Shown here piece by piece: positions 58,937-61,797 of a DNA stretch of 64,000 nt; position 1 is the first letter of the stretch; each line of letters opens with the position of its first letter. A program made the position numbers and the translations under genes. The notes beneath the pieces are model-generated. The model did no database searches, was not told where the DNA came from, and saw only the letters and a list, made by a program, of their open reading frames with translations. The DNA comes from Streptomyces sp. NBC_01476 (GTDB taxonomy: Bacteria; Actinomycetota; Actinomycetes; Streptomycetales; Streptomycetaceae): assembly GCF_036227265.1 (NCBI RefSeq), contig NZ_CP109446.1, positions 5,710,001-5,774,000 on the forward strand, in the 5' to 3' direction.

Positions 58937-59002
58937 GCGCACCCCTTATTCTTTGTCTTACGCATCCGCCGCAGGCGGTGGATGCCGACCCGAGGAGCCG
59001 TC

Positions 59003-59383
59003 TTGGCCGATCTTCACGTCGAGCTGGTGGCCGCGGACCGCAGCGTCTGGTCCGGCGAGGCCACCATGGTCATCGCCCGAACCACGTCGGGTGACATCGG
59101 CATCATGCCCAGCCACGAGCCGTTGCTGGGGGTGCTCGAATCCGGTCCGGTGACCATCAGGACCACCGATGAGAGCGGCCCGGTGGTGGCTGCCGTGCAG
59201 GGCGGGTTCATCTCGTTCTCCGACAACCAGCTGTCGATTCTCGCTGAGGTCGCCGAGCTGGCCGACGAGATCGACGTGGCCAGGGCCGAGCGGGCACTGG
59301 AGCGGTCCAGGTCGGAAGCCGACGCGGCCGCCCAGCGCCGTGCGGAGGTCCGGCTGGCCGCGGCTGCGGCGGGTTCGCGCTGA
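59003..59383 (+). CDS. atpC: ATP synthase F1 subunit epsilon
   Basis: 126 residues from TTG 59003 with CGAGGAG upstream. Beta-sandwich domain: LHVELVAADRSVWSGEATMV, TTSGDIGIMPSHEPLLGVLE and VQGGFISFSDNQLSILAEVA; short C-terminal helices (DVARAERALERSRSEADAAA). Inhibits or couples the rotor. Last gene of the operon. Confidence 0.94.
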   Translation: MADLHVELVAADRSVWSGEATMVIARTTSGDIGIMPSHEPLLGVLESGPVTIRTTDESGPVVAAVQGGFISFSDNQLSILAEVAELADEIDVARAERALERSRSEADAAAQRRAEVRLAAAAAGSR

Positions 59384-59576
59384 ACACAGGCCGCACCGTG
59401 TACGTATGACTCAGTAGCTCTCAGTACCGCGCACCACCCAGCAGGACCGGCGGACGGTGAATTCGTACACCGGCTGTCACCGCAGGACAACGGCGCCGCG
59501 GACTGCCCCAACGGGCGGTCCGCGGCTCCGGCACAGCAAGGGCGGCAACCATTCCTAGGCGAGGAGGTCGAAGGAC

Positions 59577-60023
59577 GTGATCCTCGCTTTCCAGGTGGGC
59601 TTCGGGATTCTCGCGGCGGCGCTGCTGGGACTCTTCGTCTTCGGCCTGCGCCGGCGGCTGATCCAGCGGCCGGGCGGCACCTTCGACTGCAGCCTGCGGC
59701 TCGCCCCGGCCGAGGACGCGGAGGGCGGCGGCAAGGGCTGGGTCTACGGAGTGGCCCGCTACAGCGGTGACCGGGTCGAGTGGTTCCGGGTCTTCTCGTA
59801 CTCGCCCCGCCCGCGCCGGGTGCTCGACCGTCCGGCGATCGAGGTGCTGGGCCGCCGGGATCCGCAGGGCTCCGAGGAGCTGGCGCTGCTCTCGGACGCC
59901 GTGGTGCTCTCCTGTCGCCACCGGGGGATGTCACTGGAGCTGGCGATGAGCGACGACGCGCTGACCGGGTTTCTCGCCTGGCTGGAGGCGGCCCCGCCCG
60001 GCCAGCGGGTGAATGTGGCGTGA
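59577..60023 (+). CDS. DUF2550 membrane protein
   Basis: 148 residues from GTG 59577, GGAGGTCG upstream. One N-terminal transmembrane helix (ILAFQVGFGILAAALLGLFV) followed by a basic stop-transfer (RRRLIQRPGG). The extramembrane domain has FDCSLRLAP, GKGWVYGVARYSGDRVEWFR and VLSCRHRGMSLELAMSDDAL. This family follows atpC in many Actinobacteria; function unknown. Confidence 0.88.
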   Translation: MILAFQVGFGILAAALLGLFVFGLRRRLIQRPGGTFDCSLRLAPAEDAEGGGKGWVYGVARYSGDRVEWFRVFSYSPRPRRVLDRPAIEVLGRRDPQGSEELALLSDAVVLSCRHRGMSLELAMSDDALTGFLAWLEAAPPGQRVNVA

Positions 60024-60162
60024 GGCGGCGGTTCCGAGCGGGGACCGGGAGCCGACGGGCGGCGTAGTCGACCCCCGGCCGTGTGGGGGGATGGAGCCTG
60101 AACCGCGGGGCGCTTCTCTGCTGCTTGAGCTGTCATGCGCACGCCCAAGGGCGTCTACAGAG

Positions 60163-60204
60163 ATCGTAGAAAGGTCTGGACCAGTGGTCAAGAGGTCTGG
60201 ACCA
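60163..60204 (-). promoter_or_regulatory. chitinase-type promoter with 12-bp direct repeats, no chitinase gene behind it
   Basis: On the minus strand, TGGTCCAGACCT occurs twice (60204-60193 and 60183-60172), 21 bases apart, around a -35 TTGACC (60191-60186) and a -10 TACGAT (60168-60163), spacing 17. Two such repeats overlapping the -35 region are the hallmark of Streptomyces chitinase promoters. Reading leftward, only about 140 bases follow before the 3' end of the DUF2550 gene. A short frame there (MTAQAAEKRPAVQAPSPHTA) shows no chitinase signal peptide or domain. Confidence 0.8.
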
Positions 60205-60226
60205 CCTGGCTTTCCTGCCGGCTCGC

Positions 60227-60799
60227 TCAGCGGTTCTCGCCCGGAACCCACAGCACGTCACCGCGCGAGGTGTTCGCGGTGCGGGCCAGGATGAAGAGCA
60301 GATCCGACAGACGGTTGAGGTAAGTGGCCGTCAGCGGGTTCATGGTGTCGCCGTGTTCGGCCAGCGCCGCCCAGGTGGAGCGCTCCGCGCGGCGGACGAC
60401 GGTGCACGCCTGGTGGAGCAGCGCCGCGCCGGGGGTGCCCCCCGGAAGGATGAACGAGCGCAGCTTGGTCAGGCCTTCGAGGTAGTGGTCGCAGTCGGCC
60501 TCCAGGCGGTCGACGTAGGACTGCTCGACGCGCAGCGGCGGGTACTTGGGGTCGGGGACGACCGGAGTGGCCAGGTCGGCGCCCACGTCGAAGAGGTCGT
60601 TCTGCACCCGGACGAGTACGGCGCGGACGTCGTCCGGGAGGCCGCCGAGGGCGAGCGCGACGCCGAGCACCGCGTTCGCCTCGTTGGCGTCGGCGTAGGC
60701 GCCGATGCGCGTGTCGGTCTTCGCCGTGCGGCTCATGTCGCCCAGCGCGGTGGTGCCGTCGTCGCCGGTGCGGGTGTAGATACGGGTGAGGTTGACCAT
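60227..60799 (-). CDS. cob(I)alamin adenosyltransferase, PduO type
   Basis: 190 residues from ATG at 60799. Conserved N-terminus TRIYTRTGDDGTTALGD (ATP-binding TRTGDxGTT), ARIGAYADANEANAVLG-like DTRIGAYADANEANAVLGVA, and the catalytic region CTVVRRAERSTWAAL with TYLNRLSDLLFILART. It makes adenosylcobalamin from cob(I)alamin and ATP. Divergent from the hbd gene at 60949. Confidence 0.94.
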   Translation of the reverse strand: MVNLTRIYTRTGDDGTTALGDMSRTAKTDTRIGAYADANEANAVLGVALALGGLPDDVRAVLVRVQNDLFDVGADLATPVVPDPKYPPLRVEQSYVDRLEADCDHYLEGLTKLRSFILPGGTPGAALLHQACTVVRRAERSTWAALAEHGDTMNPLTATYLNRLSDLLFILARTANTSRGDVLWVPGENR

Positions 60800-60948
60800 A
60801 CGGCCGAGCGTAGGCCCTGCCGGCCGCGACCGGGCGGACCCCAACTGTGCGACCAACGACACATGGTGACGCACCCGACAACCTGTCGCGTCCGGCGCTG
60901 AACGGACGTTAAGGTCCGGCAATACCCCAACGGAGAGGTGTGTGGACC

Positions 60949-61797
60949 GTGGCGCGGAAGCTTGCCGTCATCGGAGCCGGACTGATGGGCGCCGGCATCG
61001 CCCAGGTATCGGCCCAGGCCGGTTACGAGGTGGTCCTGCGGGACGTCACCGACGAGGCGCTGGCCCGCGGCAAGGACGGCATCCGGGCGTCGTACGAGAA
61101 GTTCACCGCCAAGGGGAAGATGACCCCTGAGGACGCCGAGGCGGCGCTGGCGCGGATCACCACCACCACCGACCTGGACGCGGCGGCCGGCGCCGACCTC
61201 GTGGTGGAGGCGGTCTTCGAGAAGATCGAGGTCAAGCAGGAGATCTTCCGCGCCCTTGACCGCATCGTCGGCGCGGAGACCGTGCTCGCCTCCAACACCT
61301 CGGCCATCCCGATCACCAAGATCGCCGCCGCCACCGAGCACCCCGAGCGGGTGGTCGGCACCCACTTCTTCTCGCCGGTGCCGCTGATGCAGCTCTGCGA
61401 ACTGGTCCGCGGCTACAAGACCAGCGACGAAACCCTGGCCCGCGCACGGGAGTTCGCCGAGGCCGTCGGGAAGACCTGCATCGTCGTCAACCGCGATGTG
61501 GCCGGCTTCGTCACCACCCGGCTGATCTCCGCCCTGGTGGTGGAGGCGGTCAAGCTCTACGAGTCCGGCGTCGCCTCGGCGGAGGACATCGACGCGGCCT
61601 GCCGGCTCGGCTTCGGCCACGCCATGGGCCCGCTCGCCACCACCGACCTGACCGGCGTGGACATCCTGCTGCACGCCACCGGCAACATCTACACCGAGTC
61701 GCAGGACGAGAAGTTCGCCCCACCGGAGATCATGCGCCGGATGGTGGACGCGGGTGACCTCGGACGCAAGAGCGGACAGGGCTTCTACACCTACTGA
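60949..61797 (+). CDS. 3-hydroxybutyryl-CoA dehydrogenase
   Basis: 282 residues from GTG 60949; GTG 60940 is only 2 bases after GGAGAGG, so the later one is preferred and matches homologues (ARKLAVIGAGLMGAGIAQVS). Rossmann GAGLMGAG, catalytic His/Glu in GTHFFSPVPLMQLCELV, and the C-terminal domain RLGFGHAMGPLATTDLTGVD. Likely acts in butyryl-CoA or polyhydroxybutyrate-linked metabolism. Alone on its strand; nearby genes do not form a pathway. Confidence 0.92.
   Translation: MARKLAVIGAGLMGAGIAQVSAQAGYEVVLRDVTDEALARGKDGIRASYEKFTAKGKMTPEDAEAALARITTTTDLDAAAGADLVVEAVFEKIEVKQEIFRALDRIVGAETVLASNTSAIPITKIAAATEHPERVVGTHFFSPVPLMQLCELVRGYKTSDETLARAREFAEAVGKTCIVVNRDVAGFVTTRLISALVVEAVKLYESGVASAEDIDAACRLGFGHAMGPLATTDLTGVDILLHATGNIYTESQDEKFAPPEIMRRMVDAGDLGRKSGQGFYTY

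Follow-up and report, generated by a model that had tools for sequence, protein, structure and literature searches.

A probable ghost of the chiC chitinase promoter between the pduO-type and DUF2550 genes

The gap between the convergent genes for a pduO-type cobalamin adenosyltransferase and a DUF2550 protein, downstream of atpC in the 64,000-nucleotide stretch of DNA analysed here (the window), carries on its minus strand a chitinase-type operator-promoter with no chitinase gene behind it. We read this element, with a probability of roughly 0.88, as the ghost promoter-operator of chiC, a gene for a secreted GH18 enzyme with a CBM2 domain that in an ancestor stood between the promoter and the DUF2550 gene. 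The elements concerned, with the basis of each assignment in brackets, are as follows.

59003-59383, plus strand: atpC, ATP synthase epsilon subunit (Pfam, PF02823)
59577-60023, plus strand: DUF2550 gene, convergent neighbour (Pfam, PF10739)
60043-60080, minus strand: putative chiC terminator hairpin, 14-bp stem and 10-nt loop (fold and conservation)
60131-60162, minus strand: probable remnant of the chiC mRNA leader, ending CATGACA (position of CATGACA)
60163-60168, minus strand: −10 element TACGAT (sequence; 17-bp spacer from the −35)
60172-60183, minus strand: operator repeat 2, TGGTCCAGACCT (exact sequence)
60186-60191, minus strand: −35 element TTGACC, between the two repeats (sequence; kept in orthologous chiC promoters)
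60193-60204, minus strand: operator repeat 1, TGGTCCAGACCT, a DasR-type or chitinase direct repeat (exact sequence)
60227-60799, minus strand: pduO-type cobalamin adenosyltransferase, its 3' end 22 nt before repeat 1 (Pfam, PF01923)

Sequence inspection of the minus strand from 60204 to 60163 gives TGGTCCAGACCT-C-TTGACC-AC-TGGTCCAGACCT-TTC-TACGAT, confirming on that strand the two exact repeats, 21 bases apart around TTGACC-17-TACGAT, that an earlier note on this DNA had described. The 12-bp direct repeats are spaced by 21 bp, the −35 element lies inside the pair and the −10 element follows repeat 2 with a spacer of exactly 17, which is the layout of chiC-type promoters. Direct repeats of 12 bp are found in Streptomyces chitinase promoters, namely those of chi genes from S. 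plicatus, S. lividans and S. coelicolor, and the present element resembles them in its two TGGTCYAGACCT copies around the −35, its correct −10 spacing and its chiC orientation, but differs in that no gene stands behind the cassette and the chiC terminator follows within ~120 bp. The distance from the −10 element to the 3' end of DUF2550 at 60023 is 139 bp, previously put at about 140 bp, and the two convergent genes are 203 bp apart in all. These 203 bp hold no ChiC match and no concealed chitinase reading frame, the presence of which the earlier note had wanted checked, and we file the element as a relic and not as a chitinase promoter in use because no chitinase gene lies downstream. The minus-strand ORF at 59759-60148 was rejected as a small gene since it runs antisense through DUF2550, and both a small ORF and a concealed chitinase are contradicted by the variation among relatives of the sequence between promoter and hairpin. 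An Rfam search of 59000-61000 returned chance-level matches only.

The orthologous locus was compared in the window's complete 8.4-Mb genome (G000), whose pduO-type protein has two Actinacidiphila proteins among its best named matches, and in 34 other genomes of the genus. By synteny, the operator occupies the position of the relatives' chiC promoters. The full chiS-chiR-promoter-chiC set is intact at the locus in five of the 35 genomes (G019, G007, G020, G021 and G022), where the order is pduO, a conserved gene facing chiS (unmatched in G022 and G021), chiS (HisKA_3), chiR (LuxR-type regulator), promoter, chiC (~690 aa, with CBM2, fn3 and GH18 domains) and DUF2550. The comparison with chiC-keeping relatives, proposed earlier, therefore upholds the view of a textbook chitinase promoter, as the same double repeat precedes chiC at the orthologous position in relatives, and of a chitinase gene deleted while its control region was left; the gene order also agrees with the earlier placing of S. 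coelicolor chiC beside the atp operon. What had been missed is the loss, on the other side, of the ChiS-ChiR two-component genes, which in relatives lie on the pduO side, between pduO and repeat 1. The chromosomal neighbourhood is that of S. coelicolor chiC (SCO5376) with chiS-chiR, the S. coelicolor locus being judged through the gene order of relatives, whereas in the window's genome chiS, chiR and chiC have all been deleted. One or more deletions would have removed chiC on one side of the promoter and chiS-chiR on the other, sparing the promoter and the chiC terminator together with an mRNA leader of perhaps 30 nt; the gap contains no piece of chiC coding sequence, so the deletion itself is deduced from synteny. 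Relocation of chiC was rejected, as the window's genome has its best ChiC match elsewhere, at only 50% identity; the gene was lost, not moved.

Close relatives display every stage of this loss. The locus is a well-resolved example of a bacterial promoter that has survived its gene, and each step of decay can be followed in relatives. The operator is kept and chiC lost in six of the 35 genomes. Four of these hold the operator alone (G000, G023, G001 and G018), with G018 half decayed, one repeat being perfect and the second degraded; G029 has the operator and a chiS remnant, and G017 has intact chiS and chiR and both repeats together with an altered −10. Repeat 1 is identical in G023, G001, G029 and G017 and in the chiC-bearing G019, G007, G020 and G021; at the −10 site the chiC-bearing relatives have TACGCT or TACTCT. 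Traces only are found in four genomes, chiSR without the promoter in G026 and G008 and pieces of chiR in G003 and G010, and nothing of chiSR-promoter-chiC is left in 20. G026 (L142) and G008 (L143), which at this locus have chiSR but neither chiC nor promoter, each carry a double-repeat promoter before a chitinase elsewhere (G026:C1:5149789 and G008:C58:81868), and in these two genomes the chitinase may have left its regulators. A conserved 183-aa protein with no Pfam match is encoded divergently from chiS (L127:5750-6298), and has gone along with chiSR in most genomes that lost chiSR.

The hairpin that follows the promoter has a predicted energy of −26.9 kcal/mol on the minus strand and −19.0 kcal/mol on the plus strand. 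Several stem pairs are G-U in minus-strand RNA and would become A-C mismatches on the plus strand, such that the hairpin is fully paired as minus-strand RNA only. All six operator genomes without chiC keep the 14-bp hairpin (13 or 14 pairs formed) with the loop GCCGCCC, which also occurs 3' of chiC in G019, G007, G020 and G021, and where the stem has changed, pairing is retained, with G-C replaced by A-U at one pair and G-U, A-U or G-C present at another. It lacks a U-run, and would presumably act as a terminator. Should DasR or some other regulator of the repeats still attach here, all that it controlled would be a useless RNA of ~110 nt, ending at the old terminator. The hairpin looks maintained for minus-strand transcripts, those of pduO and of the ghost promoter, which would explain its persistence without chiC; a genome-wide repeat family was rejected, as the genome holds one exact copy. 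Upstream of the hairpin, CATGACA lies 25 nt past the −10 element, compared with 25-30 nt in those chiC leaders that have it. In local alignments assessed by shuffling, homology to the chiC leader is not significant for the window's genome (p=0.2-0.8) and is significant for G023 (p=0.006-0.015). The Streptomyces chiC mRNA leader itself contains a small hairpin, GGTGAGYRCG...CGYRCTCA, often with CATGACA in the loop and with 4 of its 11 predicted pairs changed on both sides (within the 60 nt that follow the chiC −10 in L019, L024, L038, L048-L050, L054, L055, L067 and others).

The mildly surprising part is the apparent persistence of the cassette, and two refinements of the fossil reading, both with the same origin, bear on it. 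The first supposes recent, parallel deletions of chiC, the operator being intact through protection until late and now functionless, a reading that we consider plausible at somewhat less than even odds. The six cassettes show at least four different promoter-to-hairpin junctions, G017 and G029 retain different parts of chiSR, and G029 is not firmly grouped with G000 in the tree; however, the scars shared by G000/G023 and by G001/G018 predate deep splits (fourfold identity 0.73 and 0.66), and a clade of 25 genomes has chiC at the locus in none. Since the groups do not share their junctions, several independent deletions are likely to have occurred as well. At fourfold sites the identity of G000 to the other genomes with a cassette is 0.62-0.73, and G000 and G023 are grouped with G032, a genome from which the cassette has gone (support 97).

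The second refinement, which we hold to be unlikely though not fanciful, is that the promoter-terminator cassette is selected for a job of its own; as candidates of the same low standing, it might yield a short RNA controlled by chitin or, with protein bound, form a roadblock where pduO and DUF2550 converge. The scars of G000 and G023 are near-equal, with 22 and 21 nt from the pduO stop to the repeat and an identical CCATCCCCCCACACGGCCGGGGG before the hairpin, which suggests loss before their split. Assuming shared loss and neutral fourfold sites, the operator and −35 of this pair differ at 0 of 30 positions compared with 27% of fourfold sites (95/358; Fisher p=0.0002), and those of G001/G018, with their shared scar, at 3 of 30 compared with 34% (128/372; p=0.004); tree support is 97 and 100. 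The zero operator change is a hint of ongoing selection, although fourfold sites measure neutral change imperfectly and the shared scars are themselves deduced. Against selection, the RNA from promoter to hairpin is unconserved in sequence and length and in G001 and G018 would amount to little more than the hairpin, 20 relatives have lost everything, and the half decay in G018 and the repeats without the original −10 in G017 point the same way. We accordingly regard as improbable, and offer only tentatively, the proposal that, once the gene had gone, selection maintained the chiC operator-promoter and terminator in some members of the genus as a cassette without a gene, responsive to chitin or N-acetylglucosamine. 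Such selection, if real, would make the operator a rare regulatory element with no gene attached. The locus is also a natural experiment on operator persistence after gene loss. Among the papers searched, none described an orphan promoter that had been retained or a decoy for DasR.

The earlier note also proposed two functions for the ghost promoter. That it drives antisense RNA into DUF2550/atpC is very unlikely: the promoter does point at these genes from 139 bp away, but between them stands the conserved hairpin (−27 kcal/mol), whose stem pairs completely in minus-strand RNA alone, and any transcript should end after ~110 nt at this predicted chiC terminator.

Titration of DasR or other regulators by the two sites has still less to commend it. 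The repeats match the dre core TGGTCYAGACC, and DasR is encoded in the genome (best match 4zs8, E=1e-141). Each site departs from the dre consensus A(G/C)TGGTCTAGACCA(G/C)T in two ways, with T where an A should follow the core and C in place of the central T. In S. coelicolor, DasR was found by ChIP at chiC (SCO5376), with sites at −109 and −88, 21 bp apart (PMC4398421), and ChiR affects chiC expression (review, PMC6097792). The window's genome, however, has 20 exact TGGTCYAGACC sites and other chitinases, S. coelicolor has about 200 predicted dre (PMC4398421), and one locus, a small share, can hardly matter among so many. The search for other chitinases that had been suggested found six GH18 genes above the Pfam cut-off, and in three of them the motif lies 165-243 bp upstream of the domain. 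Regulon predictions that rely on motifs, such as DasR sites, will contain fossils.

Chance resemblance to a chitinase promoter, to which we give practically no weight, could appeal to single 12-mers with two mismatches, which occur at chance frequency, but is refuted by synteny and by two exact copies with correct spacing, −35 and −10 at the orthologous position. The exact TGGTCCAGACCT occurs in the 64-kb window at these two places only, and with up to two mismatches six single 12-mers are found compared with 5.2 by chance. A single 12-mer says little because this relaxed count equals chance; the significance lies in paired, spaced repeats at an orthologous position. The double-repeat promoter was found in 150 of 395 family genomes (11 within the genus, ~139 outside it), and the reversed-pattern control gave 0 matches across the same 395.

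Beyond the genus, most Streptomyces loci have the order pduO-chiS-chiR-promoter-chitinase-DUF2550, and most of their promoters have a ChiC-like GH18 gene behind them. L025 and L065, with the promoter and no ChiC match, have another GH18 gene at that spot, and where Streptomyces loci have no chitinase match, chiSR is generally retained and the promoter is not. A search of the 395 family genomes for a single repeat lying 51-171 bp from the 3' end of DUF2550 identified orphan cassettes next to this gene in 6 of 35 genomes in the genus compared with 0 of 360 others. A palindromic repeat, CCCCCAGACTYCGTCCGGGGG, has no copy in the window and is present in L021, L025, L039, L070, L072, L083, L129 and L135, in several of which it lies just 3' of DUF2550.
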